Shown one piece after another: positions 1 to 21,523 of a DNA stretch of 64,000 nucleotides. Every line of letters starts with the position of its first letter. Within the stretch, counting starts at the first letter, position 1. Source of the DNA: an uncultured Acetobacteroides sp. (GTDB lineage Bacteria > Bacteroidota > Bacteroidia > Bacteroidales > ZOR0009). The notes beneath the pieces were generated by a model that was not told where the DNA came from, searched no databases, and saw nothing but the letters and a program-made list of their open reading frames with translations. The stretch is from NCBI RefSeq assembly GCF_963678165.1, contig NZ_OY782755.1, positions 806,001 to 870,000 on the forward strand, read 5' to 3'. Position numbers and translations under genes: made by a program.

Positions 1-3000
1 AGTTCTACTCCCTCATCAATTGGGAGCGTTACTGTAATTCCTGTAGGTTACGAGCACCCGGCAACCACAGCTAAAGGAAAGAGTTTAGCCTACTTTTGGA
101 AGGTTAAGTCTTCAGGATTCCCAACTTCGACAACAGGGGTTACCCATCGCTTTACTTATGTAGATGATGATGCTCAAGGTTCTGATTCAAACTACTTGCC
201 CGCATACTACAATCGAACCACTTACTCTTGGATCGCAGGGGCTGCTGCTTCTGTAAATAAAGCCTCAAATGTTATATCGGATTGGACAACGAGCGGTACT
301 CTTCTAGATGGAGACTATACGGCTGGTAATGGTGCGTTTGGAACTGCTAAAAAGTTTTACAGCTGCATAAATGGTTCTAGCTCAGGTTCAGGTTTATGGA
401 GTGAATCTTCTAACTGGTCGTTTACTGGTAATGCAGGGCCTCCAAATACGAAAGGTGCTGTTCCTGGTCTAAATGATATCGTTATTATTGGGGGGGCTGA
501 TTCTTTATATCTTGCAACAGATAATACTGATATAGATATAGACGTTCAGTCTTGTGCAAGTCTTCAAATTGAAAAGGGTTCTGCATTGGATATCGGCTAT
601 AATCCCGGATGTAACTTCGCTATGGTGTTGAGCCATCCAAATGGGAATGGAAACTTTAGATTAACGACCTCTTATAATTCTGGTTCCACATATACTTTTC
701 CTTCTGGTGATTTTTCCGAGTTTAACAAAAACTTGGGCACTACCGAACTTTATACAACGAATAGCAATAGTAACACAACTTACTGGTTGCCCAATGGTGT
801 TGGCAGCTATGGGAATCTTATTATTTCGCCTCTTGGAGGTTCCAATGTTATCTTCCCCAATAATAACCTGTTAATTTATGGTGATTTAGTTATTCGCGGA
901 CAGAATCCGGATTCTTGGTTCTGTCCTACTTGGAAGTCTAGTTATCCTTCATTTCCCTCCTCCACAATCTCTAAAACCATTACTATTAATGGGAATATGA
1001 CTATAGTTGGAGGCTCTTTTGGTTGGTATGGCAATGGTTCTGGTGGTGCTCAAGATGTAGTAGTTAATGGAAATGTTACGGTGTCTGCTAATGGAGGAAT
1101 TGATGTATGGTCTGGTAACTCTAGCCAGAGTTTCTCCATCGGAGGTAGCCTTGTAAATAACACAACTGGTCGTGTTTACTCGGATCAATCTACCAACTAC
1201 GTAAATCTTAGCCAGGTAAATGTATCTTTCTTTGGTAATAGTAATTCCGAGATTAGGAATACATCAGGTACGCCAATTACTAAATTTGGTAAAGTTACAG
1301 TAAGTAAAGGGGCATCACAATCAACAACATTAACATGCAATATAGGAGGCACCCTAACCACCCCTATCGATAATTGGCTAACGTTGCAAAATGGTACGTT
1401 TATATATAAGAGTCCAAACGATCTTAATATAAGTACGGTTACTCCATTTAATATTCCAAATACAGCGTCATTAGATATAAATACTCTCAATTCAATTTAC
1501 ATAGCCCAAGGGAATGTAAGCATGAACACGGTATCACTTGGTGGAAAACTTCTGGTCGAAAATGGTACTGTAAATGTTGGAAATGCGTCAAATACAAGTG
1601 TAAGCAACAGCATAGAATATGCAAGTGGAGGTTACTCCGAGATATCAATATCAGGAGGCACCTTGAATGTTAACGGACAGATAAGACGGAATCCGCTTAA
1701 TGCAGCGGGTGTACTGGGCTACACCCAAACGGGTGGTACGGTAAACCTTTACGGCAATAAGGCATCGGGGGGAGCAAATGCAACGTTGGAGGTGGTGAAT
1801 GATGGTAGCTGGTTCAACATGTCAGGAACTAGTGCCATTAATATTATTAATGGGGGAGGTGGCACCAACACTTTTGGAGACCTTTACCTTCGTCCTGCTA
1901 GCAGCTCAGTAACTGGAGGTACTATTACTTTTGGTAATACCACTGCGGAGACATTTGCAATGGATGCCAGCATTCCTCTCAACAATCTTGTGATAAATGG
2001 AACAGGTGGAACCAATATGCTTAATCTGATGGTGAATCCATTGTTACTTAATGGCTCTCTAACCTTGAGTAATGCTACGAGTGTTCTAAAGTCAAACAAC
2101 GTCAATGTTTCACTTAAGGGTGATTTTATAAATAATGGAGCGGTTGGTTCCTACTTATATGGAACAAATACCACCACCTTTAATGGAAATATCCAAAATA
2201 TAAAGGGTACTTCTTCTACTAACTTTTATAATCTAAACATCAACCCAATTACCTCGGTTACTCTTAATCGCAGCTTTACTGCCAATGGCGACCTAACTAT
2301 TTCTTCGGGAACTCTTGCTTGTGGTGCCAATAAAATAACTCTGTTTGGCGATATTCTGAATAACGGAACCTATACCGATAATAGCGGAGGTGTTGTTCTA
2401 AATGGATCAACAGCCCAACAGCAAATCGGTGGGACGGGAACCTTTGGAACTTTAGAGTTGAATAATGTATATGGGGCAAAACTGTTGAACTCTGTGTCTT
2501 TCATAAGTAGCCTTTATATGACTGCAGGAATCCTAGACATCAACAGGTACTTGCTTTCTTTAGGACAAAATAGTGGCATTATTGCCAATGGGGCAGGTTT
2601 TAGTGCCTCTAAGATGATTGCCTCTGATGGTGTTTATAGCGATGTTGGCATAAAGAAGGTTGTTGGAACAGGAGCCTCCTCGTTTACTTTCCCTATAGGT
2701 TCTGGGGGTAAATACACTCCTGCTGTTCTTACGGTAACCTCCAATGGTTATGTAGGTGCTGTCCGAGTTAACAATATCAATGCCCGTCATCCTTCGGTTT
2801 TAGATCCTAACAATGCCTTGAGATACTACTGGGAGATAGAAAGTGCCGGCTTATCTGGATTTAGTGGAGGGCTTGCGTTTAGCTACAACCAAAGCGATGT
2901 GGTAGGCGATGAGGGCAAATATGAGGCATCTCGGTTGAGTATCCCCGACTACAATTGGTCTAAGAGCCTTCCTCCAACCGATAATGTAGATGAAGGTAGT

Positions 3001-5706
3001 AATGTCATTTCGTTTACTTTTCCTTCCAATTCTACTACAATAAGTGGTGAGTATACTGCAGGTGGCGATGCTGCTTTGCCTGCTGTAATTGCTACCTATA
3101 CCTCTATTCGTGATGGAAATTGGTCTGATAAGACCATTTGGTCGCCAATTGCACCCGATGGTGGCCCTAATGGGTACATAGTTGTCATTGATAAAAATAC
3201 AACTGTAACGGCTAGCTCTAACAATACGTTTGCCTATCGAACACAGATAAATAGTGGTGGAACATTAAAGGTTGATCCTTCAACCTCTGGACATAACCTT
3301 GGAACGGTAGTTGGGAATGGTACGCTGCATCTCGAGAGTGGACAGATGCCTGCAGGACGCTATGATTCTTTCTTCGATTGTTCGAGCAGTTCAACGTTGG
3401 AGTATGGAGGAAGTGGTGACTATACAATTGTTTCTGATTTATATACGAGTGTTCCTAATTTAGTTGTTTCGGGTACCGGAACTCGTTACTATCCGAATAA
3501 AGATTTAACTGTATGCAAAAAGCTGAATATTGATGGTCCAATACTGGACAATTCGCTTTACGATAGAAAATTGACGATACTTGGAAGTATGCTGCTTACG
3601 TCAGGTGGTTTCAGATCTGGCACTGGTGATGACGCTAGGGTCGTTTTTTCTGGTACAGCAAAGCAAGCGATAAGTACCGATGCTAATGCGTTCACAGGAC
3701 TTAATAAATTCAACAGCATTGAGATTAATAATCCAAGTGGTCTTGATCTGACAGGTAAAATGGAATTGGGAGGTAATCTATATTTAACCAATGGCGTTAT
3801 CAATACAAGTTCAACGAATACATTTACAATTACGAACCTAAGCGAAAGCTGCATATATCCTTCTGCAGGAACAGAGTTGTCATACATCAATGGTCCGTTA
3901 ACTAAGTATATGAAGACGGGCAGTTATGACTTTGTTTTTCCTATTGGGCAGAATAGATATGGGTATCAGATAGCGTTGAAGGCAACCTTTAGTAATAGCG
4001 TACCTTGGACGGTACAGTATTTTAATAACAACCCGACAAGCACTTCGTTCAACACTCCAATTAGTGTGGTTAATTCCGATGAGTATTGGAGCGTTTCTTC
4101 TACTGATGCAAGTTCGAAGGGGTACGTGAGGCTTTACTGGAATTCTAGTAGCGGTCTAACTCCTGCTATGACAACTAATGGCTTGCCCGATATGCGTATT
4201 GCCGACTTAGAATCTGGTAAATGGACCGCATTGGCGACTAGTGCTTCGGGAGATAATACTAATGGTTCTGTAACCAATGCCAGTAGCTATGCGTTTAGTA
4301 GCGCTAATACTGCTTACAGTTTTACCACTGCTTCTGTTACGGGAATTATGCCTAAGGCAAAGTTTTCGCCAACAGGTGCAATTTGTGGCTCATCTTCCAT
4401 TCCGGTGACCATCTTTACCAACGGAATGGCTATTGCCCCACCCTACATATTAACCTACTCCTTGAATGGCAAAATCCAATCTGTAACATTTAGTAATCTC
4501 ACAGGTTACAGTTTGCCCGTGTCTGTAGCGGGAAACTATCAGCTGGTTAACTTTTCCTACAACAATGGTTCTGGTGTTGTAGATGCTAAAACTGTTGTTA
4601 CCTCATACGATAGTCCAACGGCTGCAGCAGCAGGCCCTGATTTGTCGCTTTGCGGTGCAACTTTAGCGACGCTTGCAGGTAATGTCCCTACCGTCGGTAA
4701 AGGACTCTGGAGTATTGTATCGGGAACTGGAGGTACGGTTACCTCGCCAGATCTTTATAATAGCACATTAACAGGTACTAACGGTTCGTCGTACACTGCC
4801 CGATGGACTATCAGCAATGGTGGGTGTATCAGTTCCGATGATGTTAATATAAACTTTACCCTTAAGCCTAATGCTCCTGCTGCAGCTTCGCCTCAGGCAT
4901 TCTGCTCTGGTGCTAATTTGAGTAATATAGCTACAACAGTTGGCACAGGTACCTCTATAAATTGGTATACTGTTGCTGCTGGAGGGACTGTGCTTAGTAG
5001 TGCAACTCCGTTGTCCAATACAACGTACTATGCAGAAGCAAGCAATGGATGTTTGAGCGATAGTAGAACTCCTGTTCAGGTTGCTATAACGCCGAATGTT
5101 TCAGTAACTCCAATTGTAAGCGTTGGAGCAGAACCTTCGTGTATGCTTTCGAGCGAATCTAGTACAACGTATACTTCTACAGTGAGCAACGCTACATCTT
5201 ACCTGTGGAGTATTAACAATGGCAGCTTAGGCTCGATAAATAGCCTTACTGGTGAGGTTACGTGGAATCCAACCGTTACAGGTGCTGCAAACATTACAAT
5301 TCAAGCAAGCGGTTGTGGTCCTGTAGCAACTGCAAGTAGAACGGTTACGGTGAATAGCTTACCTGCTCCTGAATTTAAAACGATTGCTCCAGCTTGTGCA
5401 GGACAGGGGGTGTCTTTATCATTAACTGCAGCTTACTCAACATATCTTTGGTCGGTTACTACTACAGGGTACTCGTTATCGAGCACCACAAGCGCAAATC
5501 CAACGCTCTATGCCCCCAGTAATGATACCCTATTTCCTCCAAGTAGTTCTTCTATGGTTTCGTACCCCGATGTTAAGGTGTTTGTAACTGATTCTAATGG
5601 ATGTTCTAACTCTGTGCAAAATAGTTCGTCTGATAAGTCGCTAGTCATAAATAGAATACCACGTACGGGGCCTCCATACCATGTAGGCAATAGCGTGGCA
5701 AAGTAA
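1..5706 (+). CDS. Giant secreted repeat protein, 5'-truncated by window edge, with TGPxYH tail
   Basis: The reading frame is open from base 1, so the true start lies outside the window; about 1901 residues are visible. It looks like an extracellular, Ser/Thr/Asn/Gly-rich beta-repeat surface protein. Visible modules are 'GNW...TWS'-type openings (near bases 380 and 3115), long beta-helix-like stretches rich in GGTLNVNG-type repeats, and 'FPIG..YTP' followed by 'YYW' units (near 2690-2830, and FPIG again near 3940). Cys-containing PKD/Ig-like domains follow from about 4380. The protein ends in TGPPYHVGNSVAK, a tail shared with three other proteins here. It is a tandem paralogue of the next gene: both contain a module with IEY.SGG, NGQ.RR, DMSGTS-like and SSTVTGGTI motifs. 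There is no classical type A or CHU_C type B T9SS domain. An adhesin or matrix role is inferred; the specific function is unknown. Confidence 0.85.
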   Translation, partial: SSTPSSIGSVTVIPVGYEHPATTAKGKSLAYFWKVKSSGFPTSTTGVTHRFTYVDDDAQGSDSNYLPAYYNRTTYSWIAGAAASVNKASNVISDWTTSGTLLDGDYTAGNGAFGTAKKFYSCINGSSSGSGLWSESSNWSFTGNAGPPNTKGAVPGLNDIVIIGGADSLYLATDNTDIDIDVQSCASLQIEKGSALDIGYNPGCNFAMVLSHPNGNGNFRLTTSYNSGSTYTFPSGDFSEFNKNLGTTELYTTNSNSNTTYWLPNGVGSYGNLIISPLGGSNVIFPNNNLLIYGDLVIRGQNPDSWFCPTWKSSYPSFPSSTISKTITINGNMTIVGGSFGWYGNGSGGAQDVVVNGNVTVSANGGIDVWSGNSSQSFSIGGSLVNNTTGRVYSDQSTNYVNLSQVNVSFFGNSNSEIRNTSGTPITKFGKVTVSKGASQSTTLTCNIGGTLTTPIDNWLTLQNGTFIYKSPNDLNISTVTPFNIPNTASLDINTLNSIYIAQGNVSMNTVSLGGKLLVENGTVNVGNASNTSVSNSIEYASGGYSEISISGGTLNVNGQIRRNPLNAAGVLGYTQTGGTVNLYGNKASGGANATLEVVNDGSWFNMSGTSAINIINGGGGTNTFGDLYLRPASSSVTGGTITFGNTTAETFAMDASIPLNNLVINGTGGTNMLNLMVNPLLLNGSLTLSNATSVLKSNNVNVSLKGDFINNGAVGSYLYGTNTTTFNGNIQNIKGTSSTNFYNLNINPITSVTLNRSFTANGDLTISSGTLACGANKITLFGDILNNGTYTDNSGGVVLNGSTAQQQIGGTGTFGTLELNNVYGAKLLNSVSFISSLYMTAGILDINRYLLSLGQNSGIIANGAGFSASKMIASDGVYSDVGIKKVVGTGASSFTFPIGSGGKYTPAVLTVTSNGYVGAVRVNNINARHPSVLDPNNALRYYWEIESAGLSGFSGGLAFSYNQSDVVGDEGKYEASRLSIPDYNWSKSLPPTDNVDEGSNVISFTFPSNSTTISGEYTAGGDAALPAVIATYTSIRDGNWSDKTIWSPIAPDGGPNGYIVVIDKNTTVTASSNNTFAYRTQINSGGTLKVDPSTSGHNLGTVVGNGTLHLESGQMPAGRYDSFFDCSSSSTLEYGGSGDYTIVSDLYTSVPNLVVSGTGTRYYPNKDLTVCKKLNIDGPILDNSLYDRKLTILGSMLLTSGGFRSGTGDDARVVFSGTAKQAISTDANAFTGLNKFNSIEINNPSGLDLTGKMELGGNLYLTNGVINTSSTNTFTITNLSESCIYPSAGTELSYINGPLTKYMKTGSYDFVFPIGQNRYGYQIALKATFSNSVPWTVQYFNNNPTSTSFNTPISVVNSDEYWSVSSTDASSKGYVRLYWNSSSGLTPAMTTNGLPDMRIADLESGKWTALATSASGDNTNGSVTNASSYAFSSANTAYSFTTASVTGIMPKAKFSPTGAICGSSSIPVTIFTNGMAIAPPYILTYSLNGKIQSVTFSNLTGYSLPVSVAGNYQLVNFSYNNGSGVVDAKTVVTSYDSPTAAAAGPDLSLCGATLATLAGNVPTVGKGLWSIVSGTGGTVTSPDLYNSTLTGTNGSSYTARWTISNGGCISSDDVNINFTLKPNAPAAASPQAFCSGANLSNIATTVGTGTSINWYTVAAGGTVLSSATPLSNTTYYAEASNGCLSDSRTPVQVAITPNVSVTPIVSVGAEPSCMLSSESSTTYTSTVSNATSYLWSINNGSLGSINSLTGEVTWNPTVTGAANITIQASGCGPVATASRTVTVNSLPAPEFKTIAPACAGQGVSLSLTAAYSTYLWSVTTTGYSLSSTTSANPTLYAPSNDTLFPPSSSSMVSYPDVKVFVTDSNGCSNSVQNSSSDKSLVINRIPRTGPPYHVGNSVAK

Positions 5707-6248: not shown

Positions 6249-9200
6249 ATGGGTAAGGGATATGTTTTTAATACCACTCAACGACGTTTCGCTTTCGTAT
6301 CTTTTCTGCTACTCGCTCTTTTACTTGCTCCGAGTGAGGGGTGGGGGCAACCACAGTCGCAAATATTTACTACTAGTGGAACCTTTGTGGTACCCGCTGG
6401 TGCGACCTCTATAACCGTAGAATGCTGGGGTGCTGGAGGTGCAGGTGGTGGGTCTACTGGTAGTGGCTCAGGAGGTTCTGGAGGTGGCGGAGGCGGTTAT
6501 GCAAAGAAAATTCTTGCAGTTACTCCAAATCAGTCTATAGACTTTATTGTTGGGACTGGGGGGATAGGTGTCAATGGAGGAAATGGTAATCCAGGTTCTT
6601 CCTCTTCTTTCTTATCTTTGATTGCTAATGGAGGAGGTGGTGGTAAGACAAATAAACAGGCTGCAGGTTCTGGCGGTAATGCAACAGGAGGAACAACAAA
6701 TACGACAGGAGGCAACGGTATTGTAGGTACTGCTACCGGAGGAGCAGGAGGTGCTGGTGCTAATGGAGGAGCAGGAGGTGCTGGTGCTACCAATAATGAT
6801 GGGGGCAATGGTAACTCTCCTGGCGGTGGTGGCGGTGGTGGAGAAAAAGGTGGTGGTAATAAAGCCGGTGGTAATGGTGGTGATGGTCAGATTATCGTTA
6901 CTTGGACAGTGCCAACATTTGCAGTCTCTACTGCAACCCTTGATTTTGGTTTTGCTGCAAATGGAAGTACTTCTACATCTCAAAGTGTTACCCTGTCGGG
7001 CATAAACCTAACGGGGGATCCAGGCAACGTGGTTATAAATGCTCCTGACAACTTCGAGGTTTCGTTGAGTGCTGGATCGGGATATGCATCATCGATAAAC
7101 GTACCCTATGCCAGTGCAACATTAGCATCAACTACTATTTATGTTAGGTTTAAGCCTACTGAAGCCAATGTAGATTATATAGATTTTATTACAGTTAATG
7201 GAGGCGGCGCACCTGAGCAAAGTGTAACGGTGGTAGGAAATTCGAATCCTTCTTATTGTTCGTCAACAGGTAATACTAGTTACGCAACTAGTGTTACTAA
7301 GGTTCAGTTTAATACTATTAATAATACATCGGCAAAGCCATCTGCCTATAGCGATTATACTGCATTATCTACGTCGCTTGCAAAAAACAGTAGCTATAAC
7401 CTTTCTGTAAATTTGAATACGGATGGGCCTTATTCTATCAATGCACGTGTTTGGATTGATTGGAATCAGAATGGTAGTTTTAATGATGCTGGTGAGGAAT
7501 ATGATTTGGGAACTACAAGCAATAGTGCAAATGGTCCAACAACGTTATCGCCATTAGCTATTAATGTGCCATCTACGGCGGCTCTTGGTAATACAAGAAT
7601 GCGTGTATCTGCAAGATATAATTCCTATGCAGCATCTTGTGATAATGGTTATGATGGAGAAGTTGAAGATTACACGGTTAACGTCATGCAACCACCAACT
7701 GTATACTACTCAAGAGGTGGCGATCCAACTGTTTATGCTAATTGGAATACGGCACGAACGGGAGGAGGCTCTTCTCCAACCAGTTTTACTGCAAACAACC
7801 AGATATTTGTGGTGCAGCCTTCCTTTCCAATGACGGCTGTTTCGGTATGGGGTATTTTGGGTACAACAACTAAGTTGCAAATAGAAGATGGGTCCATGCT
7901 AACAGCCAATGCGCCCATCACGCTATCGGCAGCAACCACCCTCCAACTTGATGCCAACGCCACCTACAACCACAACGTGGACAGCGATGCGGTTTGGGGA
8001 GGTGTGGAGGTTATCGATCCAGCATCAACCATTTCGTATGGCTTTGCAGGTGCGCAGAATGTCATGGCGCTTAATTATGGTAACCTTACCATTGCTGGCG
8101 GTGGTACCAAAACCATGCAAGGTAACGTTACCGTTAATGGTACCCTGACCCTTGCTAATGGTAAGCTTAGCTTAGGATCGGGAACCAATAACCTTACGCT
8201 AGCCAGCGGCGCCACCATTGCAGGGGCTTTTGATGCTAACCACATGGTTGTATGCGATGGTACGGGTAGCCTTATTAGGCAAGGTACCTCCGCTGCCGAT
8301 TTTGTAATGGCTTATCCTGTAGGTACGGGTACCAGCTATACGCCCTACGAAATTACCTCGTTTACCGCTACGGTAGCGGGAACGGCGAGCGTTGGCGTAC
8401 GTGCGGTGCCCTCGTTAGCGCCTGGTCCTGTGGCTGCCAATGGGACCGACCTTAAGAAGTACTGGGCTGTAACTACCTCCAACCTTACCATAACGGATGC
8501 AAGCTTAAAGTTAACCTACGATATTGGAGAGGCTGGCTCAAGCAGCGCACAAGCAAATTATATCCCATACTACCATAATGGTTCGGCATGGTCGATACCT
8601 ACGGTTGCCAGTGGTCCTGGTGCCAACCCCATGACGGTGTCGGGGGCAACTAGCATCGCCGGACAGTGGACCGCTCGCGAGCAACCGCTCTATAAAACCT
8701 ACTACTCCTACCAGTCGGGCAATTGGAACATTGCCACCACATGGACAACCGACCCATCGGGTACCCTCTCGGTAGCACCGGCGGTGCCTACGGCAAACGA
8801 TAGGGTGGTGATACTTAATGGTAGAACGGTAAAAACACCCGCTAATGGGTATGCCGTACTTTCCGTTCAGATTAACGAGGGTGGTACGCTCGACCTTGGT
8901 ACTTTTACCACGCAGTCGTTTACCACCGTTCGTGGACAGGGTGTTGTACGCCTTAGCAACTCAGTATTCCCTACGGCCGACTGGAGCAACTTCGTTTCGG
9001 CGGGTGGCGGTACGGTTGAGTACTATAATGCTGCCAGCTTCAGCTTTGGGCAATTGGTGTACAACAACCTTATCATTAATCTTAGTACAACCGCACTAAC
9101 CAGCACCCTTCTGGGAGATATGACGGTTAACGGTAACCTTACGGTAACTAGGGGTAAGTTTGCCATTAACAATGGTACTGCGGCGAGTCGAAATCTATCC

Positions 9201-12200
9201 ATACAGGGTAACGTGTACGTATCGGCAAATGGTAGTATGGGTATTGGTACGGGTAATGCCAACCACCGCATCACCATCAATGGCGACTTTACCAACGATG
9301 GTAGCGTACGTTTTACCAATCAGGCTACCCCTGCATATACAAGCACACCTACAACAGGAACATCGGATGTTGTTTTTAATAATGGAACAGCCGATCAGAG
9401 TCTGCGATGTAACGGGCAGAGTGACTTCTACCGTATAGAGATAGATAAGGGGTTTGACCAAACTTATGTGCTGAATATTGATGCTACCGCTACCGCAAAC
9501 TTTAGGCTGTTTGGCAGGAACGATCAGCAGCATTACCTGCCAACCCAAAGCCCACCAAATCTTCCAAATCCTAATGCGTTAGGGCTACTTGCAGGAACGG
9601 TAAGGTTAGGAAGCAATATATCAATTCCATGCTTGGGTACCGATAATGGCAATTATGGGGTCTATAATATAGATGAGGATGCGCGATTGTGGTTGGATGG
9701 AGCAACCGTAGTTTGGAATCCTGCGTACCAAAATTTTGACCCTGTAGTATATGGTACAATTCGTATAACCGGAAACTCCTATTTTGATATACGAAATGGA
9801 GCCAATGGATTGGTGATGCGTACAACAGGGCTATTAAGCATTGAAGGAGGTCAGTTAGACATTTCCTCACTTCGTGTATCCTCACAAGATGGTCTTGGAA
9901 CTCACCGTGGGGCTTACTATCAATCAGGAGGAACCTTAAATGTAACAGGTGGTAGTACTGATTTCGCCGCTAGCTTTATGCTACCCTATAGTGCTATGGC
10001 GTTTAAGATGAGCGGAGGAATAATCAATATTCTCGCTCCTGCAATAACAGGTGGTAGTGGTAATAATTTTAGCTTAATAATTGGAGCGAATCCTAGTAAT
10101 ATAAGCGTCACAGGAGGTACTGTCAATATTACAACACCAGGTGGAGGTCAGGCAAACATTAACTCTTCGGCACCATTCTGGGATTTGAATATCCTCGGAA
10201 CGGGAACATCCTACCTTGCCGACTATGCAGGTAATGCAAGCCTTCCTGCAGTTCCTGCGCTTACAGCACCCGCATTAGTTGTTCTTCATAATCTAGCGGT
10301 TAATGGATCGAGTAGACTTAATACAAATAATAAAAATGTTTCCGTTGCGGGCGATTTTATGCTTAGTGCGGGAACAACTTATTTGCCAGGGACTAATATG
10401 ACCATATTTAATGGGTCGGGAGGTCAACGTTTTTCTAATATTGGTACAATAGGTGTTGGGGGCAACGGATTATACGATTTGATGATTACCAATAAGTCAA
10501 ACGCCGACATCTTTACCAACAATCTTATAGTTCAAAATAACCTAACTATTGACGATGGCTGTTTCCTTAATGATGTGGGGCATAGTATACGCGTAAATGG
10601 TAACGTTACCAATTCGGGTACGCATACCAGCCAGGCGAGTGGTGCCATACTCCTGAACGGTACCTTTAACCAGGTTATTGGCGGTTCGGGGCTTGGGGTA
10701 TTTGGCAATGTTAACCTCAATAATACGGCAGGGGCTACTCTAACGGCCAACCAGTCGCTTACAGGCAACCTACGCTTAGGGGCAGGTGTGCTAAACGTAG
10801 GCAACTTGAACCTAAAGTTGGGAAGTGCTAGTGCAGTGTACGATGCCCTTGCGGGTACCACCACTGCTGGTTTTTCGGGTACCAAGATGCTGAAGCTGGC
10901 AGGTTTCCAAAGCGATGCAGGTATAACCAAAACCTACAGTAGTACGGCCAACTTTCTATTCCCAATAGGTACTGGTGCTGACTATACGCCAGCTAATATA
11001 CAGGTAGGCACAGCACCTTCTAATTGGGGGTCGGTAACTGTTCGTCCTGTAGCGCAACTACAGCCCTTTGCTACCTCTACCAATGCGCTTACTTACTACT
11101 GGAAGGTAACCAGTTCCGACTTTGCAGGTCTACAACCCAACTCGGTAACGCATAGCTACCAGTACGTAACATCTGATATTGTGGGAACCGAGGGTAGTTA
11201 CATCCCTGCAGCCTACCGTCCCTACAGTTGGGTGCCCATTAACGACGTATCTAAGGTTGTTGATGGTACAAATACGGTGCTGTTTAACGGCATAAGCTTC
11301 ATTGATGGCGACTATACCGCTGGCGAGTTGAGCGCATTTGCACCCGTAAAGGTGTTCTATAGCCGAACAGATGGCAATTGGAACGACTATAATACGTGGT
11401 CGACAGCATCAGTAGGCGGAGTTGCTGTTTCCGCCGGTGCTGTTGCTGGAATAAATATTCCTGGGCCAAGTAACCCGGTTGTTATTGGCGATGCATCCCA
11501 TAACCATACCGTAACCATTCCTGCGGGCTTTAATAATATTACGACAGGTGGACTCCAGATTAACTCTGGTTCTACGCTCGATATTACAACAACTACGGGG
11601 CATAACTTCGGTTCTATTCCCGATACAAAGGTGTTGGGTACTGGGCTGCTGAAGATATCTTCGTCTGTTGGAATCGCGGTGTTTCCTGGTGGCGACTTTG
11701 GTAACTTCCTATCGAGCGGTGGAGGTACCGTAGAGTACTATAGTAATGGAGCAACATCGTTTACGCTGCCTACCACCTATGTATCGGCGGGTAGCACGGT
11801 AAATATTACCACCTACAATAACCTGGTAACGACACCTGCGGCAGGTCGAACGGTAACGTTACCGAATACCAACTTGATGGTATATGATACCTACAGGGTG
11901 GGAGGAACAGGAGTTTCGCAACTTAATAATGCTGCAACTCTTCAAACTCTTACAGTTGGAAAACTGCTTGACGTGCAGTCGAGTGGAACGCTTAGGTATA
12001 CAAATACAGGAGCACAGAGCGTTGTGGCTAATGGCGATGTTTTAGTTAATGGTACCTTTGATGTAAACGCAGGAGGTACTGCAACCAACTTGTTAGCGGT
12101 TCAGGGCAACCTTACCAATAACGGAACCTTCGACATGTATAAGAGTGCTACAAGGGTTTGTAACGTTACCTTTACTGGCGATACTGATAAGGAAATAAAT

Positions 12201-15200
12201 GGTACAGGAACAACCACCAACTTTAATACGATAACAGTCGATAAAGGATCGTCGCGTAATACGCTGCTTGAGGTAACGTCTAGCACTCTTTCGTTGAATA
12301 CAACTCTTGCTACGGCGCTTACTCTAACCAACGGCACCTTTAGGCTAACAAGTCCATTAACCCTTGCCCTCACCAATTCGGGTAGCTTCTCTATTCCTAT
12401 TTCAGGTTGTTTGTCTGCCAATGGAGGTACCATAAATATTGGAGGAGCAGGAGCCACCGATGCCACCGACCTTAAACTCGACGGTCGTTTGGAGGTACTA
12501 GATGGCGCTATTAATATAGGTACGCTTGGCACAAATCTTAATAACGACATTGAGTACTCCTCGGGTGGAACTCCCGAAATAGTTGTGGGTGGTGCCGGAA
12601 AACTTTTTGTAAATGGTCAAGTACGAAGGGTTACCACCATTAATACAGGCTCGCTGAACTATTCGCAAAGCGGAAGTAGTGAGGTTACCATTGCTGGACG
12701 TAATGCTAACAGTTCTCGCTCGATGCTCGAAATCCTTAATGCAGGTAGTAAGTTTGATATGAGCGGCACTAGCAAACTAACCATTACGGGTAACTTTAAT
12801 AATGCCAGCTATACTGACCTGTATCTAAGTCCAGAGAGTAGTACTGTGACTGGAGGTACTATTGTATTTGGTGCTGGCACAACTGCTGCCAACTCAACCT
12901 TTAATATGGTGACATCCGTTCCTCTTTGGAATCTGGAGGTAGATGGAACAACAAATAGTAAGAATGTAGATTTGAATATCTACCCTTTGATATTGCAGGG
13001 TAATCTGACTATTAAAGGTAACTCGGCTTTTATGGCAAACGGGCTTGATGTAACCATTAATGGGAATCTAACAAATAGTAATACCAATGCGAGTTCTGGT
13101 GTAAACAGTGGAGGCTATCAGGCAGGGGCGTTAACGCAAACAACCTATTTTAAAGGGGCTTCAAGTCAGACTATTGCTGGTGCAGGTGCTAATCTTACCA
13201 ACTTTGGTAATCTGGTTGTAGGAACATCGGGTACATTATCGCTTAGCTCGAATACAAACATACGGGTAAACAGGAATCTCTCTATTAACGCAGGGATATT
13301 CAGTGATGGTGGAAATACCATATCACAGATTGGGGATGTTTATAATCAGGCGACCCATATAAGTTCGGGTGCTACAGGAGGTATTAGTTTCGATGGAACA
13401 CAACCTCAGCTGATATCTGGTAATGGGGCTGGCTTGTTTGGTAATATTACCATGAACAACTCGATGGGGGCTGTTGCAAAGGATAATTTCCAGATAAACG
13501 GTATTCTTACCTTTAATTCAGGTAGCATTTATATTGACGATTATCTCCTAACATTTGGTTCAAATGCCACTGTCGCAGGATCAACTGATAAGAATAGGAT
13601 GCTTATCCTAAATGGGGTAATCTCTGATGCTGGGGTAAAGAAGATATTCAATGCTGGCGCATCTTCGTTTACTTATCCAATGGGTGTTGCTGGAAAGTAC
13701 ACTCCTGCTACCTATACCTTTACATCGAATACCAATAGCAATGGGGCCATAACCATTAAGCCAGTAAACTATATTCATCCATCGGCGGCAGCACCTGCAA
13801 CGGATCAGCTAAAGTACTATTGGAATGTTGTATCGTCTGGTTTTTCAGGAGCATGTATCGTAGATCATTATTATAAGTATGAGGCGGCAGATGTTGTTGG
13901 AACCGAGACTGACTACGTTGCTGGTAGATTTGTTGGAGGTATTTGGAACCCATCGGGGGGGATTGCAGGAGGCGTAGATGCAGGAAACCATCAGGTTAAA
14001 CTGATAGGACAGACCTTTATAGATGGGGAGTATACGGCAGGTGACGATCCTAACTTTGTGTCTTTGCCTGTACTATATAGCATAAAATCGGGTGACTGGT
14101 TTACATCGGGAACATGGTCTCTTACGGCTGGTGGACCCTCTTGCGGCTGTACTCCAAATGGGAATCCAGTGGTTGTCTCTGCAGGGCATACGGTTACACT
14201 TGGTTCTAATGGAGCAACGGCATATTCAGTGGATATTAAAGGAACTCTTGATGTTGGGTTGACGGTTTATCATAGTATTGGTCATGTGACTGGAGGTGGT
14301 AAGCTAATGCTTACTTCTACTGCCGATGGTATTTTCGTATTCCCTGGTGGTAACTTCGATGTCTTTGCGGGCACTACAGGCAGTACCATTGAATTTACTG
14401 GTAACAATGAGGCCACATTGCCCCTTAAACCAGGTAATAACTACAAACCCTATCAGAATGTAATATTCTCGGGTACAGGTAAGAAAATGATTACAGCAGA
14501 GGACCTGAAAGTGCTGGGAAATCTTACCATTAATGCAGGTGCAACCCTAAGTAACGAACTCTTCAATAGAACTATTACCGCTTTAGGTAATTGGACCGAT
14601 AACAATACGTCTGCGACGGGTGGTTTTATTCCAGGTAAGGGAATGGTTAACTTTAACGGTGCAGTAGGGCAAACGCTTACCGTTGCTAATGGTGCAACTA
14701 CTGAGCAGTTCTATAATCTTAAGATAGACAATGCTGCTGGGATGACCATTGCAGGTCTTGGGAACGCTGCTGTATCTAATCTTTTGTACCTAACCAATGG
14801 GAATGTAACAACAACATCAACGAACCTGTTGAGCATAACCAATACCAGCACTAGTGCTGTTGTTGGTGGTAGTCCTACCTCATTCGTAAATGGACCGCTT
14901 AGAAAGAGTATGAACGCTGGTGGTAATTTTGCTTTCCCTGTTGGTGATGCTAGTGGCTCTCGTTTTGGGAGGGTTGTTGTATCTGAAGTGTCTAGTGCAG
15001 GCAATTATACATCTCAATACTTTAGCCACAACCCCAACAACGAAGGGTATAACCCTTCTACAAAAACTGCCCCTGTTGATGTGGTGAGTAATACCGAATA
15101 CTGGAAGGTTAATGGACCTGTTGGTGTTACCGGGAATGTTACCTTACGTTGGGATAGTTCTAGTGGTATAATTCCAGTTGCAGCGGCTTCTCGACAGAAA

Positions 15201-16739
15201 CTTAGGGTGGTTGAATGGAATTCATCCTGGATTAATAGAGGTAATATGGTTACCGATGGAGGTGTTGCTAGTGGTACTATTAAGACGGCACCTACACCTA
15301 TTGCATTGAATGGCGATCACATCCTTACAATAGGTGTCGAAAGTCTTCCAACCGCTACCATAACCGGCGGCACTGCCAGTATTTGTAATGATGGGACTAG
15401 TACAAGCATTCCGATCACCCTTACAGGTACTGGGCCTTGGAATATAAAGTATAAGATTAATGGGGCCAACGAAACCTCTATCTCTAACATCGCGACTTCG
15501 CCATATAGCTTGGTCGTATCTAATGCGTTACCCGCATTAGCAAGTGGTGGTCCTGGTGACTACGTGTTTACCATGTCGTATGTTCAGGATAATACAGGAA
15601 GCACGGGTATTAGCGATTTTACTACTTCGGCAACTATAACGTTGAAACCATCTCCAACGCCAGTGATCACAGGGTTAACCACGACGCCTGCGGGTTCTGT
15701 TGTAGCGTATAGTACGGCGAGTAGCGGTAATACTTACTCATGGACTATTACAGGTGGTACGCCCGTTTCGTCAAATATAAACCCAGTTTCAGTTACCTGG
15801 GGGGCAGGTGCTGCTGGTACGCTAAGGTTGACAGAAACTATAAATGGTTGTAGTGTTACTACTCCTGTTTACAATGTAACACTTACTGATATTCCTAATC
15901 CTTTAGTTAGCGGTAATAGTACGGTATGTCATAATTCTGTTAATACCTACTCGACCCCAAAGGTTGGAACGCACGCTTATGCTTGGACCGTTGTTGGAGG
16001 AACCTATACGGTTGGTGCTACTCCTAATATTATTAATGTTACTTGGACTGCGGCAGGGACAGGCTCTGTTGCTGTAAAGGAAACAGGATCTTCGTCTGTA
16101 ACGAACTCATTAAGCGTTACTGTAAATCCACTACCTTCAGCAGCTAATACGGTTTCTGATCCTACCATTTGTAATGGTAGTTCTGCAAGTATCGTAATAA
16201 CAGGTGCGGCTGGTGGTATAGAATACCAGCTTCGTCTTAATAGCGATAATACCAACGTAGGTTCATCGGTAAGTAGTATGGCAGGGGGAGATGTTACCTT
16301 AACGGCATCACCTGTGGCAAATACTGTTTACAATGTTTGGGCAACTAATGAATATAGCTGTAGCGTACAGCTTACCGATTTAAGTTCAACTACCGTAAAC
16401 GCAAATCCAGTAATTGCTTGGGATGCCGCAAATGTTTATAAAGGCTGTGCTGATGGGAATACAGTGTTAAAGCTTAGCGACTCTTCTTTCCCTAATTATT
16501 TGTGGAGCGTAGAGGATGCTATTGGAGGTTTCACGCCCTCGAATAGCTATCAGCCAACAATTACTTGGCTGTCGAATGGTTCTATTTTCCCTAGTGGAGG
16601 AACTCAGGTTGATAAGATTGTTTCGGTTATTGTTACAGGAGCAAATGGATGTAAGACAACACTGACAAAAACAGTGACAATTTATCGAAAGCCCGTTACT
16701 GGTCCACCCTACCACGTTGGTAATAACATTGCAAAGTAA
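6249..16739 (+). CDS. Giant secreted modular protein (3496 aa) with Gly-rich, GEVED and PKD-like domains and TGPxYH tail
   Basis: The start at 6249 is chosen because it places a basic N-terminus and hydrophobic core (MGKGYVFNTTQRRFAFVSFL...) as a Sec signal peptide; the in-frame TTG at 6126 would bury it. Residues about 40-215 form a glycine-rich domain opening with a VPAGATSITVECWGAGG motif. An Ig-like beta domain follows, then a GEVED domain at about 335-480 (ends DGEVEDYTVNV). Four 'YS..GNW...TW' modules begin near residues 485, 819, 1703 and 2608, each followed by beta-helix-like repeats and several by FPIGTG.-YTP and YYW units. Cys-containing PKD-like domains occupy roughly the last 450 residues. 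The protein ends TGPPYHVGNNIAK. It is a paralogue of the upstream gene. Role as surface adhesin or matrix protein, and export by T9SS, are inferred; no standard T9SS C-terminal domain is visible. Confidence 0.85.
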   Translation: MGKGYVFNTTQRRFAFVSFLLLALLLAPSEGWGQPQSQIFTTSGTFVVPAGATSITVECWGAGGAGGGSTGSGSGGSGGGGGGYAKKILAVTPNQSIDFIVGTGGIGVNGGNGNPGSSSSFLSLIANGGGGGKTNKQAAGSGGNATGGTTNTTGGNGIVGTATGGAGGAGANGGAGGAGATNNDGGNGNSPGGGGGGGEKGGGNKAGGNGGDGQIIVTWTVPTFAVSTATLDFGFAANGSTSTSQSVTLSGINLTGDPGNVVINAPDNFEVSLSAGSGYASSINVPYASATLASTTIYVRFKPTEANVDYIDFITVNGGGAPEQSVTVVGNSNPSYCSSTGNTSYATSVTKVQFNTINNTSAKPSAYSDYTALSTSLAKNSSYNLSVNLNTDGPYSINARVWIDWNQNGSFNDAGEEYDLGTTSNSANGPTTLSPLAINVPSTAALGNTRMRVSARYNSYAASCDNGYDGEVEDYTVNVMQPPTVYYSRGGDPTVYANWNTARTGGGSSPTSFTANNQIFVVQPSFPMTAVSVWGILGTTTKLQIEDGSMLTANAPITLSAATTLQLDANATYNHNVDSDAVWGGVEVIDPASTISYGFAGAQNVMALNYGNLTIAGGGTKTMQGNVTVNGTLTLANGKLSLGSGTNNLTLASGATIAGAFDANHMVVCDGTGSLIRQGTSAADFVMAYPVGTGTSYTPYEITSFTATVAGTASVGVRAVPSLAPGPVAANGTDLKKYWAVTTSNLTITDASLKLTYDIGEAGSSSAQANYIPYYHNGSAWSIPTVASGPGANPMTVSGATSIAGQWTAREQPLYKTYYSYQSGNWNIATTWTTDPSGTLSVAPAVPTANDRVVILNGRTVKTPANGYAVLSVQINEGGTLDLGTFTTQSFTTVRGQGVVRLSNSVFPTADWSNFVSAGGGTVEYYNAASFSFGQLVYNNLIINLSTTALTSTLLGDMTVNGNLTVTRGKFAINNGTAASRNLSIQGNVYVSANGSMGIGTGNANHRITINGDFTNDGSVRFTNQATPAYTSTPTTGTSDVVFNNGTADQSLRCNGQSDFYRIEIDKGFDQTYVLNIDATATANFRLFGRNDQQHYLPTQSPPNLPNPNALGLLAGTVRLGSNISIPCLGTDNGNYGVYNIDEDARLWLDGATVVWNPAYQNFDPVVYGTIRITGNSYFDIRNGANGLVMRTTGLLSIEGGQLDISSLRVSSQDGLGTHRGAYYQSGGTLNVTGGSTDFAASFMLPYSAMAFKMSGGIINILAPAITGGSGNNFSLIIGANPSNISVTGGTVNITTPGGGQANINSSAPFWDLNILGTGTSYLADYAGNASLPAVPALTAPALVVLHNLAVNGSSRLNTNNKNVSVAGDFMLSAGTTYLPGTNMTIFNGSGGQRFSNIGTIGVGGNGLYDLMITNKSNADIFTNNLIVQNNLTIDDGCFLNDVGHSIRVNGNVTNSGTHTSQASGAILLNGTFNQVIGGSGLGVFGNVNLNNTAGATLTANQSLTGNLRLGAGVLNVGNLNLKLGSASAVYDALAGTTTAGFSGTKMLKLAGFQSDAGITKTYSSTANFLFPIGTGADYTPANIQVGTAPSNWGSVTVRPVAQLQPFATSTNALTYYWKVTSSDFAGLQPNSVTHSYQYVTSDIVGTEGSYIPAAYRPYSWVPINDVSKVVDGTNTVLFNGISFIDGDYTAGELSAFAPVKVFYSRTDGNWNDYNTWSTASVGGVAVSAGAVAGINIPGPSNPVVIGDASHNHTVTIPAGFNNITTGGLQINSGSTLDITTTTGHNFGSIPDTKVLGTGLLKISSSVGIAVFPGGDFGNFLSSGGGTVEYYSNGATSFTLPTTYVSAGSTVNITTYNNLVTTPAAGRTVTLPNTNLMVYDTYRVGGTGVSQLNNAATLQTLTVGKLLDVQSSGTLRYTNTGAQSVVANGDVLVNGTFDVNAGGTATNLLAVQGNLTNNGTFDMYKSATRVCNVTFTGDTDKEINGTGTTTNFNTITVDKGSSRNTLLEVTSSTLSLNTTLATALTLTNGTFRLTSPLTLALTNSGSFSIPISGCLSANGGTINIGGAGATDATDLKLDGRLEVLDGAINIGTLGTNLNNDIEYSSGGTPEIVVGGAGKLFVNGQVRRVTTINTGSLNYSQSGSSEVTIAGRNANSSRSMLEILNAGSKFDMSGTSKLTITGNFNNASYTDLYLSPESSTVTGGTIVFGAGTTAANSTFNMVTSVPLWNLEVDGTTNSKNVDLNIYPLILQGNLTIKGNSAFMANGLDVTINGNLTNSNTNASSGVNSGGYQAGALTQTTYFKGASSQTIAGAGANLTNFGNLVVGTSGTLSLSSNTNIRVNRNLSINAGIFSDGGNTISQIGDVYNQATHISSGATGGISFDGTQPQLISGNGAGLFGNITMNNSMGAVAKDNFQINGILTFNSGSIYIDDYLLTFGSNATVAGSTDKNRMLILNGVISDAGVKKIFNAGASSFTYPMGVAGKYTPATYTFTSNTNSNGAITIKPVNYIHPSAAAPATDQLKYYWNVVSSGFSGACIVDHYYKYEAADVVGTETDYVAGRFVGGIWNPSGGIAGGVDAGNHQVKLIGQTFIDGEYTAGDDPNFVSLPVLYSIKSGDWFTSGTWSLTAGGPSCGCTPNGNPVVVSAGHTVTLGSNGATAYSVDIKGTLDVGLTVYHSIGHVTGGGKLMLTSTADGIFVFPGGNFDVFAGTTGSTIEFTGNNEATLPLKPGNNYKPYQNVIFSGTGKKMITAEDLKVLGNLTINAGATLSNELFNRTITALGNWTDNNTSATGGFIPGKGMVNFNGAVGQTLTVANGATTEQFYNLKIDNAAGMTIAGLGNAAVSNLLYLTNGNVTTTSTNLLSITNTSTSAVVGGSPTSFVNGPLRKSMNAGGNFAFPVGDASGSRFGRVVVSEVSSAGNYTSQYFSHNPNNEGYNPSTKTAPVDVVSNTEYWKVNGPVGVTGNVTLRWDSSSGIIPVAAASRQKLRVVEWNSSWINRGNMVTDGGVASGTIKTAPTPIALNGDHILTIGVESLPTATITGGTASICNDGTSTSIPITLTGTGPWNIKYKINGANETSISNIATSPYSLVVSNALPALASGGPGDYVFTMSYVQDNTGSTGISDFTTSATITLKPSPTPVITGLTTTPAGSVVAYSTASSGNTYSWTITGGTPVSSNINPVSVTWGAGAAGTLRLTETINGCSVTTPVYNVTLTDIPNPLVSGNSTVCHNSVNTYSTPKVGTHAYAWTVVGGTYTVGATPNIINVTWTAAGTGSVAVKETGSSSVTNSLSVTVNPLPSAANTVSDPTICNGSSASIVITGAAGGIEYQLRLNSDNTNVGSSVSSMAGGDVTLTASPVANTVYNVWATNEYSCSVQLTDLSSTTVNANPVIAWDAANVYKGCADGNTVLKLSDSSFPNYLWSVEDAIGGFTPSNSYQPTITWLSNGSIFPSGGTQVDKIVSVIVTGANGCKTTLTKTVTIYRKPVTGPPYHVGNNIAK

Positions 16740-17025: not shown

Positions 17026-18888
17026 ATGGCAGAAGATAAAGATGTTAAGTTATTTGCCGAATTCGCTCCTGTGACAACAGCCGAGTGGGATGCGGTAATT
17101 AACGTTGACCTTAAGGGTGCCGACTACGACAAGAAGCTGGTGTGGAAACCATTGGAAGGCTTCAGCGTACGTCCGTACTACCGTACTGAGGATATGAAGA
17201 ATCTCGATCACCTTCAGTATCTCCCTGGTCAATTCCCATATGTTCGCGGAAACAAAACCAACAGCAACGCTTGGATGGTTCGTCAGGATATCCTTGTAGA
17301 GGATGTTAAGGCAGCCAATGCTAAGGCGCTGGATGTGCTCATGAAGGGCGTTGACTCGCTCGGATTCGTTTTCAACAGCTGCAAGGAGCTTACCGCTGCA
17401 GAGCTTGACACTCTTCTTAAAGGTATCAGCGTTTGCGCTATCGAGGTAAACTTTGTATGCTGCTGCAAGAGCCGTAATCTAGCTAAGCTATTCATCGAAA
17501 AGATGAAGAAGGACGGCGTTAACCTTGCTGCTGTTCGTGGATCAATCAACTACAGCCCACTTCGCAAGCTATCGCTCGAAGGTGCTTGGTGCTCCGACGA
17601 AGCTGCTGCTTTCACCAACACTAAGGAGATGATCGAAGGCGCTGCTGCCCTTCCTTGCTTCAAGACTGTTTCGGTTGATGGCTCTATCTTCCACAACTCG
17701 GGCTCAACCTCTGTTCAGGAGTTGGCTTTTGCCCTTTCGATGGGTAACGAGTACCTTGCTAAGCTTACCGATCTTGGCGCTTGCGCTACCATGGTGGCTA
17801 AGGCTATTCGCTTCAACTTCTCGGTTAGCTCCAACTACTTCATGGAGATTGCCAAGTTCCGCGCTGCTCGTATGCTTTGGGCAGAAATCGCAAAGAACTA
17901 CGGCGTTGCCGAGAACGATGCTAAGATGAGCATCCACGCTGAAACATCGAAGTGGAACCAAACCGTTTACGACCCATACGTTAACCTACTTCGTGGTACT
18001 ACCGAGGCTATGTCGGCTACCATTGCAGGTGTTGACTCGCTAACCGTAGTTCCTTTCGATGCTGCTTACCGCAAGTCAACTGAGTTCAGCGACCGTATCG
18101 CTCGCAACGCTCAGCTGCTGCTTAAGGAGGAGGCTCACTTCGACCTAGTGGTTGACCCAGCTGCTGGCTCATACTACATCGAGGAGCTAACTGCTTCTAT
18201 CGCAAAGGCTGCTTGGACGCTATTCGTAGAGGTAGAGGGCAAGGGCGGATATGTTGCTGCAATTAAGGAAGGATTTATCCAAGCTGCAGTTAAGGCTACC
18301 GCTCAAAAGCGTGATATGAACATCGCTACTCGTCGCGATATTGTACTTGGTACCAACCAGTATCCTAACTTTACCGAGGTTGCTGAGGCTGATGTAACCC
18401 TTGAGGCTATCACCCGCGCTGAGGCTAAGAAGGGTGATGCTGCCGAGGCTCTTGCTCCATACCGTGGCGCAATGGCATTCGAGGCGCTTCGCTACAAGAC
18501 TGATAAGAGCGGCAAGGAGCCTAAGGCTTTCATGCTAACCATCGGTGCTTTGGCAATGCGTCGTGCACGCGCTCAGTTTGCTTGCAACTTCTTTGCTTGC
18601 GCTGGCTTCCGTACCATCGACCATAATGGATACGCTTCTGTTGAGGAAGGTGTTAAGACTGCACTAGAGGCTAAGGCTGATATAGTTGTTATCTGTTCTT
18701 CGGATGATGATTACGCAACCTACGCTCCTGAGGCTTACGAAATGCTTAAGGGTAAGGCTATCTTCGTTGTTGCTGGAGCACCAGCTTGCGAAGCCGAGCT
18801 TAAAGCTAAGGGCATCACCAACTTCATCAGCGTAAAGAGCAACGTGCTTGAGACATTGAAAGGTTACCAAGCAGAGTTAGGGATTTAA
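17026..18888 (+). CDS. mutA: Methylmalonyl-CoA mutase small subunit
   Basis: A 620-aa protein. MutA is the non-catalytic partner of MutB in adenosylcobalamin-dependent interconversion of succinyl-CoA and (R)-methylmalonyl-CoA, the entry to propionate formation in Bacteroidales. Residues about 1-480 show the mutase barrel fold, including the FAEFAPVTTAEWDAVI opening and the VDPAAGSYYIEELT block shared with MutB ([14 protein letters not shown]). The C-terminal ~130 residues align with a B12-binding domain but lack the cobalt-ligand DxHxxG motif (AMRRARAQF lies near that place), as expected for the small subunit. The codon bias (Lys AAG, Phe TTC) suggests high expression. mutB follows, with an unrelated gene inserted between them. 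Confidence 0.96.
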   Translation: MAEDKDVKLFAEFAPVTTAEWDAVINVDLKGADYDKKLVWKPLEGFSVRPYYRTEDMKNLDHLQYLPGQFPYVRGNKTNSNAWMVRQDILVEDVKAANAKALDVLMKGVDSLGFVFNSCKELTAAELDTLLKGISVCAIEVNFVCCCKSRNLAKLFIEKMKKDGVNLAAVRGSINYSPLRKLSLEGAWCSDEAAAFTNTKEMIEGAAALPCFKTVSVDGSIFHNSGSTSVQELAFALSMGNEYLAKLTDLGACATMVAKAIRFNFSVSSNYFMEIAKFRAARMLWAEIAKNYGVAENDAKMSIHAETSKWNQTVYDPYVNLLRGTTEAMSATIAGVDSLTVVPFDAAYRKSTEFSDRIARNAQLLLKEEAHFDLVVDPAAGSYYIEELTASIAKAAWTLFVEVEGKGGYVAAIKEGFIQAAVKATAQKRDMNIATRRDIVLGTNQYPNFTEVAEADVTLEAITRAEAKKGDAAEALAPYRGAMAFEALRYKTDKSGKEPKAFMLTIGALAMRRARAQFACNFFACAGFRTIDHNGYASVEEGVKTALEAKADIVVICSSDDDYATYAPEAYEMLKGKAIFVVAGAPACEAELKAKGITNFISVKSNVLETLKGYQAELGI

Positions 18889-18890
18889 TT

Positions 18891-19315
18891 ATTGAGATAT
18901 TAGACGTTAGACATTAGACGTTAGAATATGCACAATTTTAAGGAGTTGAATGTATGGCAAAAGGCTAGGGCTTTCTCGAAAAGCATCTATTCTTTGACTT
19001 CGGACTTTCCGAAAGTGGAACAGTTCGGTGTTGTAAGCCAACTCCGCCGTGCTTCTGTCTCGATCTCATCAAACATTGCTGAGGGTTCGGGTAGAGGTTC
19101 CGATAAGGATATGTGTAGATTCTTGGATATCGCATTAGGATCAGCTTTTGAAGTTGAATCACTGCTATACATTGCTTTAGATTTGGGCTATATCAATCAA
19201 GATGACTTTGATAATTTGAATAGTCAAGTTCTTGAGATTGGCAAAATGCTTTCGAGTTTAAATCAATGTTTAGTTAAGCGACAACAGTCTAATATCTAAA
19301 ATCTAACATCTAAAA
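18891..19315. repeat. Inverted 7-bp repeat element enclosing a four-helix-bundle gene
   Basis: The left arm (18898-18925) is four exact-phase heptamers NNTTAGA, preceded by a degenerate copy at 18891. The right arm (19288-19315) is four heptamers TCTAANN, the reverse complement of the left type. GATATTAGAC at 18896-18905 is perfectly inverted at 19287-19296. The arms bracket the gene at 18928-19299, whose stop codon lies inside the right arm. The element splits mutA from mutB, so it looks like an inserted unit. Similar arms without a gene occur at 39754-39869 and 50715-50865. Confidence 0.75.
18928..19299 (+). CDS. Four-helix-bundle protein, 23S rRNA intervening-sequence (IVP) family
   Basis: A 123-aa protein with the family hallmarks: FKELNVWQKA at the N-terminus, the block FGVVSQLRRASVSISSNIAEG followed by GRGS, then an EVESLLYIALDLGYI helix. 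Proteins of this family are encoded in intervening sequences of 23S rRNA genes and, in many Bacteroidota, as free-standing genes; the fold is shared with the accessory protein bAvd of diversity-generating retroelements. Here it is neither in an rRNA nor near a reverse transcriptase. It lies co-directionally between mutA and mutB inside an inverted heptamer array, so it is probably an insertion read through by the mut transcript. Molecular function unknown. Confidence 0.9.
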   Translation: MHNFKELNVWQKARAFSKSIYSLTSDFPKVEQFGVVSQLRRASVSISSNIAEGSGRGSDKDMCRFLDIALGSAFEVESLLYIALDLGYINQDDFDNLNSQVLEIGKMLSSLNQCLVKRQQSNI

Positions 19316-19330
19316 TCAAAAACAATTATC

Positions 19331-21484: not shown

Positions 21485-21519
21485 TTTAGATGGTAGACCT
21501 TAGATGTTAGATTTTAGAC
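21485..21519. repeat. Half of a heptamer (TTAGA-type) element
   Basis: Five consecutive heptamers of the NNTAGAN type (21485-21519) in the same orientation as the left arm at 18898. No right arm follows; the 42-bp tandem array begins four bases later. Confidence 0.55.
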
Positions 21520-21523
21520 TTTA

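Follow-up and report, generated by a model that had tools for sequence, protein, structure and literature searches.

A conserved C-terminal tail on unrelated secreted proteins of Bacteroidales marks a small protein, CHU_C and PorP gene module and suggests docking on a shared surface anchor

Why should secreted proteins that have nothing else in common end in the same few residues? This question is raised by a 64,000-nucleotide stretch of DNA from an uncultured Acetobacteroides species (order Bacteroidales), called the window below, in which an initial annotation claimed that four secreted proteins with different bodies share one C-terminal tail. The four tails, TGPPYHVGNSVAK (stop at 5706), TGPPYHVGNNIAK (16739), TGPVYHIGNNVAK (29208) and TGAVYHIANNIAK (38439), are all in frame and have a stop codon directly after them, and the bodies of the proteins do differ, as claimed. 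Sorting, anchoring and assembly had all been proposed as the role of the tail; we favor docking and assembly, which we believe about as much as we doubt, over a new class of sorting signal, which we judge unlikely. The shared tail, together with a small set of anchor genes, suggests that the tail is a plug that hooks proteins, some of them thousands of residues long, onto the cell. The tail proteins of the window are as follows (aa, amino acids; ORF, open reading frame).

1 to 5706, forward strand: C-terminal part of a giant, apparently secreted tail protein; open frame of 3149 aa that starts upstream of the window, inside the fetched locus L018; Ig_7 domain (PF19081) near the C-terminus
5665 to 5703, forward strand: tail TGPPYHVGNSVAK, stop codon at 5704-5706
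6249 to 16739, forward strand: giant, apparently secreted tail protein with GEVED and glycine-rich domains; ORF from 6126, likely start the ATG at 6249, before a signal-peptide-like stretch (by eye)
16698 to 16736, forward strand: tail TGPPYHVGNNIAK
28144 to 29208, forward strand: small tail protein, 354 aa, without a Pfam or NCBIfam family name; first gene of the small, CHU_C, PorP module
29167 to 29205, forward strand: tail TGPVYHIGNNVAK
35233 to 38439, forward strand: Cys-repeat, apparently secreted tail protein; ORF from 35227
38398 to 38436, forward strand: tail TGAVYHIANNIAK

A 19-position model built from these four tails was searched over the whole source genome (one contig, 4.3 Mb). 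It gave ten matches at E ≤ 10, of which six are clear (E 1.2e-11 to 7.9e-5) and four are weak (E 0.007 to 3.3); inspection of the weak ones was limited to the best, which is no tail. The six clear matches are all inside 51 kb (G000:C1 793743-844436) and are all terminal, with the protein ending 13 residues after the start of the TG. Two of them, TGATYHISNDVAK at 793743 and TGSPYHISNSVAK at 799564, lie just upstream of the four in the window. At the four-fold sites of the six tails, 43 of 63 pairwise comparisons differ though the residues are kept, and so the tails are not recent copies; with the E values of the genome search, this led us to reject recent copying or chance as their source. As judged by eye, a signal-peptide-like stretch is present at the start of all six proteins. 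The tail is also the best-conserved part of the small protein, with 3.5 bits per column over its ten columns compared to 1.9 elsewhere and 2.8 in the best other ten-column window (figures from the 31 of 39 aligned small proteins that have a canonical tail).

The terminal position of the tail holds well beyond this genome. The window and 81 fetched loci together have 3,984 ORFs (569,107 residues); a 15-position core model was run on these, and all 91 distinct matches at E ≤ 1 end at most 10 residues from the stop codon. The loci were fetched for holding matches, and therefore the test speaks on position and not on frequency. Internal occurrence, which the initial annotation had named as a possible refutation, did not materialize in these ORFs (0 of 91 model matches); a looser regular expression gave two internal matches, both in PorP proteins and unlike the tail. 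DNA coding for TGPIYHIPN was sought in a species collection of 84,980 genomes. Among the matches listed, a stop codon comes 1 to 5 residues after the Asn in 20 of 20 loci, and the organism labels are Bacteroidales (15), Perlabentimonas gracilis, also of this order (1), Bacteroidetes/Bacteroidota (3) and an Acidobacteriota metagenome-assembled genome, or MAG (1). At L116 7842-7868, the frame that holds TGPIYHIPN is just 17 residues long and is possibly a broken gene end; the small gene next to it has its own tail.

In a sample of the order, the tail was matched in 37 of 393 genomes, and 31 of these, in ten families, were accepted. The other six (G128, G177, G221, G291, G383 and G392) were set aside, with matches in frames of 21 to 115 residues, one of them with an internal stop; the loci of G128 and G383 were scanned and no tail ORF was found. 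A sample of the phylum gave model matches in 2 of 395 genomes, the source genome and G585, and only the former is convincing. The match in G585 (E 0.007, 309 residues before the stop) was rejected as a chance hit.

The tail might have turned out to be the last strand of a known immunoglobulin (Ig) or PKD family in organisms that lack the type IX secretion system (T9SS), a possible refutation that did not come true. No T9SS-free organism was seen among the 37 tail-matched genomes, all of which have PorP/SprF, but so do 369 of the 393 genomes sampled. Thus, the presence of PorP/SprF says little alone, and the adjacency of the genes is much stronger. The last strand of a known Ig family is also not sufficient as an explanation: there is no internal model match, and one tail protein of another family (L082, 470 aa) consists of repeats and the tail with no match in Pfam, so the tail need not follow a recognized Ig domain. 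The tail is a real, conserved and unnamed element with a clear genetic context.

That context is the new observation: the tail marks a conserved module that consists of tail giants, a small tail protein of about 330 aa, a short CHU_C protein and a PorP/SprF barrel. Neighbors of the last two types had been predicted, and they are present in the window at 29272-30402 and 30425-31435, downstream of the small gene. In the following list, CTD stands for C-terminal domain.

29272 to 30402, forward strand: T9SS protein of type B (CHU_C), short (376 aa) and made of PKD-like domains and a CTD (TIGR04131 E 3.7e-15, PF13585 E 3.9e-17, structure model); proposed anchor
29344 to 29625, forward strand: N-terminal PKD-like domain (N-domain) of the CHU_C protein, spanning about residues 25-118; homologue of the small protein's N-domain and proposed tail acceptor
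30115 to 30393, forward strand: type B CTD of the CHU_C protein, residues 282-374
30425 to 31435, forward strand: PorP/SprF family outer-membrane barrel (TIGR03519 E 1.5e-68, PF11751)

The small protein at 28144-29208 has no match in Pfam, NCBIfam or PHROGs. Its family was found in 50 of 295 genomes of the order at E ≤ 1e-4, and 28 of these, in 12 families, are below 1e-20; many of the weaker matches cover part of the model inside long proteins. The fetched loci contain 61 distinct small genes, and 48 of them have more than 2.5 kb downstream. A CHU_C gene follows in 47 of the 48, directly or past further small genes, and then a PorP gene in 43. Exceptions are L177, where CHU_C is missing after the small gene, and L098 and L171, where no PorP was detected. 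These same families supplied the sequences for the CHU_C and PorP models, and NCBIfam confirmed the scanned genes of the window, L076 and L217. The small gene is present in all 31 accepted tail genomes. A tail giant, or the end of one, is close upstream of it in L074, L076, L084, L087-L090, L094 and L116, which gives the order giant, small, CHU_C, PorP; elsewhere, and in the window too, no giant lies that close. The model of the long tail, that is, the tail described so far, fails to match 13 of the 61 small proteins, the majority of which have a variant ending such as PTPTTSPIQHLKNL and another small gene as neighbor.

Two of the loci deserve separate mention. L074 7992-12723 has four consecutive small-family genes with four different tails, followed by CHU_C and PorP, and would be a natural test of docking with one tail for one partner. 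L123, a 4.7-kb contig that is labelled as an Acidobacteriota MAG and is perhaps misassigned, holds the whole small, CHU_C, PorP module.

The substrates of the T9SS are recognized by their CTDs, and proteins without one are not counted as clients. The initial annotation held that the tail matches neither the type A nor the type B (CHU_C) domains, and this was borne out in the tail proteins scanned. There is no type A or type B CTD model match at E ≤ 1 in the three giants of the window, in the two other tail proteins of the source genome or in the last 500 residues of four giants from other families. In particular, neither the type A CTD (PF18962/TIGR04183) nor the type B CTD (PF13585/TIGR04131) was found in the tail proteins P0001-P0004 (Pfam at E ≤ 0.1, NCBIfam at E ≤ 1), the L018 proteins and the four giant ends. 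The CHU_C proteins of the window and of L217 served as positive controls of the type B scans, and both match. The 376-aa protein of the module, which has a CTD model match and an adjoining PorP/SprF gene, is of type B. The source genome has SprA and PorP. Besides its six tail proteins, there are six type A matches at other places in it, four of them above the cut-off, and three type B matches, two of them above the cut-off. The available text of PMC10202324 also names a type C family of CTD.

One answer would be that the T9SS has, in addition to types A, B and C, a further and new class of C-terminal sorting signal, namely the tail with the last Ig-like domain where present, and that this signal is read directly by the T9SS or by a PorP/SprF-like carrier. 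T9SS signals occupy the very C-terminal end of a protein, and in type A cargo the residues of the motif at that end are important for translocation, according to the accessible part of PMC11285876. The tail proteins look secreted and have no known CTD, and two PorP genes are present in the module of L075 and in that of L085. However, the CTDs known so far fold as domains about 70-100 residues long, whereas the tail has 10-15 residues that are coil in the structure model, and it follows bodies without a common terminal domain (L082). A free-standing signal would also need no small gene and CHU_C gene, and every tail genome has both (31 of 31). We regard this answer as unlikely, although none of the other alternatives comes out better.

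The answer that we prefer, with belief and doubt in about equal parts, is that the tail is a C-terminal docking peptide, comparable to the donor strands of pili, that assembles secreted proteins without a recognized T9SS signal on one type B/PorP anchor. The tail-bearing proteins would have a Sec-type signal and no recognized T9SS signal, and the T9SS substrate would be a separate short protein, made of PKD-like domains and a type B CTD, that is held by its PorP/SprF barrel. We predict that the tail of a giant docks on the N-domain of the small protein, the tail of the small protein on the N-domain of the CHU_C protein, and the CTD on PorP. The first proteins would then have only a tail, the middle one an N-domain and a tail, and the last one an N-domain and a CTD, which would make a chain in gene order. 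The likeliest chemistry would be strand complementation, in which the tail supplies the first strand to the N-domain of the next polypeptide.

The N-domains of the small and CHU_C proteins are homologous (hhalign 95.6%, E 1.2e-8), and a comparison of the small N-domain with the remaining CHU_C-protein domains gives no more than 3.7%. None of the 18 tail giants with the 5' end inside the locus has an N-domain near its N-terminus. Internal copies of the domain are often preceded by V-x-P-x-P-x-(I/V)-(S/T)-G, and the tail starts with a similar P-x-P stretch and then ends. Because the N-terminal copies begin close to a conserved Cys and the internal ones follow a P-x-P linker and a first strand, the tail may supply the first strand that is missing.

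When tail genomes were compared by family, giant tails proved to share the peculiarities of their lineage with the tail of the small protein: Lys as the last residue in the genus of the source genome, an F or Y close to the end in most of f25, W in three of the four genomes of f97, TGE in f83 and a ten-residue tail in f38. In a permutation test with 20 genomes, the within-genome similarity of the tails is 45.0 compared to 37.5 expected (P 0.0002). When each of eight families is represented by a single genome, the median P is 0.001 over all positions and 0.003 over positions 7-13. The gap scores in this test were our own choice, and the tail matches in L183 and L101, which lack the exact core, were excluded from it and from the per-genome tally. 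Since the bodies are unrelated, the co-variation implies either a shared partner or repeated transfer of the tail.

The strongest independent support comes from a second and shorter tail, because these proteins were chosen without any tail search. Genomes outside the 37 tail-matched ones were reached via a search with the N-domain, and 20 short-tail loci were fetched. These other Bacteroidales have the same arrangement with a tail that ends I(F/Y/W)Hx-stop, for example PxTSxIFHx-stop, and short proteins with the N-domain again lie before a CHU_C gene. The 20 loci have 14 small proteins; Ile is at -4 in all 14, His is at -2 in 11 and a detected CHU_C gene is next in nine. Ten of the 13 upstream neighbors with a stop in the locus end [IL]xHx-stop, compared to two of the 110 other ORFs of at least 150 residues, and both of these are themselves members of the chain in L228. 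The N-domain of one short-tail small protein matches PF19408 (PKD_6). The residues directly before the CHU_C N-domain vary with the type of tail, a pattern that common descent confounds. Short-tail rows (12, counted by hand) have D-(T/N/S) just before the domain in 10 of the 11 that are readable, with L224 as the exception and the truncated L226 unreadable, and long-tail rows have Pro three before the Cys in 30 of 40.

Several results weigh against docking. Most of the window giants are not adjacent to the module. The structure model of the small protein is poor (mean predicted local distance difference test, pLDDT, 64), with a last strand at 331-337 and then coil. The N-domain is of a common PKD type and is a common stalk domain: weak matches (E < 0.05) are inside 14 of 42 tail giants, 90 of 295 genomes of the order have it at E ≤ 1e-8, and 14 of 158 genomes of the phylum reach E ≤ 1e-7, where it mostly recurs several times within a long protein, giants outside the order included. 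We therefore rejected the idea that the domain is unique to the module. The argument from spacing for a missing first strand is weak, since the distance from the start to the Cys differs only modestly, with a median of five residues in 61 N-terminal copies and eight in the 12 of 33 internal copies that have a readable P-x-P and Cys. Repeated transfer of tails could be another source of the co-variation. Finally, docking leaves unexplained how a giant without its own CTD crosses the outer membrane.

Parts of the proposed arrangement have precedents. In the available text of PMC9143113 and PMC12618676, type B CTD proteins bind PorP/SprF-like barrels that anchor them, and examples are SprB-SprF of Flavobacterium johnsoniae and PG1035-PorP of Porphyromonas gingivalis. 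As these sources present the two pairs, the module is like them in that a type B CTD protein is encoded beside its own PorP/SprF-like barrel, and unlike them in that its CTD protein is a short one that lacks an adhesin part and in that giants and a small protein without a CTD share a tail. The best Foldseek match of the CHU_C protein model (pLDDT 83.5) is GhpA, the grappling hook protein of Aureispira (PDB 9flp, 9flw, 9fly, 9flx; E 3.2e-12), which has a stalk of similar domains; this is a resemblance of fold only (template modeling score, TM, 0.31 by query length). The closest operon is sprC-sprD-sprB-sprF of F. johnsoniae, reportedly described by Rhodes et al. in 2011. There too, extra proteins (SprC and SprD), in that case for motility, are encoded beside a type B protein and its SprF, but the CTD is on the adhesin SprB itself; the C-terminal ends of the two extra proteins are outside this comparison. 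One of the two, SprC, travels along the gliding track according to the accessible part of PMC12635249.

The principle that we propose is that of the type V pili (FimA/Mfa1 of P. gingivalis), in which a C-terminal strand fills the N-terminal groove of the next subunit. According to the part of PMC5954841 that is available, FimA uses donor-strand complementation, and its groove is opened when a protease removes the N-terminal strand. Unlike in FimA, the first strand of the module's domain seems to be absent from the gene, which would be a genetic version of donor-strand complementation. The module is also unlike these pili in that no FimA-type domain was matched and that its anchor is of the type B/PorP kind. 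The small protein could itself be a filament subunit, with the tail joining its own copies, the CHU_C protein as the base and the giants joining by the same tail. Small proteins do combine an N-domain with a tail, their genes come in runs of up to four (L074), and the C-terminal strand is what type V pilins use in the text just cited. However, the small gene is mostly single per module, and Pfam gave no type V pilin domain family in the small protein. A fold search of PDB with its poor model returned generic Ig folds only and a sequence search of PDB returned only matches of E 0.5, with no significant pilin match in either, and we consider a filament improbable. A sortase-like recognition sequence for proteolytic cleavage and covalent attachment is the least probable of all, by a wide measure: the motif is short, terminal and conserved, with TG invariant in most members, and type A T9SS cargo is known to be anchored covalently (PMC9143113, accessible text), but in the six tails of the source genome nothing after the motif, neither a hydrophobic segment nor a basic tail, could hold the protein in the membrane, and the last residues co-vary between proteins, whereas drift would be expected in an end that is discarded (no search for a matching peptidase was made).

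To return to docking, a wider proposal, which we make tentatively and with more doubt than belief, is that many Bacteroidales build surface stalks as non-covalent daisy chains, in which every tail would complete the N-domain of the next protein with its missing first strand and one short type B/PorP anchor would export or display several giants without a T9SS signal, a signal for secretion and anchoring in trans. Surface proteins on a T9SS anchor are already known. If the tail does link giants with a type B carrier, CTD models would underestimate the surface proteome of the Bacteroidales concerned. The tail gives a simple sequence rule and a defined set of partners for complex prediction, and docking would be a testable reason for keeping short CHU_C proteins beside PorP/SprF genes. 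In the literature searched, as far as its text was accessible and with most subscription journals outside it, no description of the tail, the small family, the module or an anchor in trans was found; a search by the letters of the tail gave one amyloid paper, with nothing on the tail in the text available.

Some other features of the window can be mentioned. Two apparently secreted proteins with the FGE-sulfatase fold (PF03781) are encoded at 32067-33584 and 33594-35144 and precede the Cys-repeat tail protein. A related FGE-like gene (L082 8149-9684) adjoins the repeat tail protein of another family, and we assign no meaning to this recurring pair. The ORFs at 21504-21779, 24297-25154 and 62083-62559 consist of short repeated words and are probably tandem-repeat DNA and not genes; the one at 24297-25154 is open in several frames on both strands. 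Between the second giant and the module, at 17026-21430, are two genes that resemble those for methylmalonyl-CoA mutase subunits, with a 123-aa protein between them.

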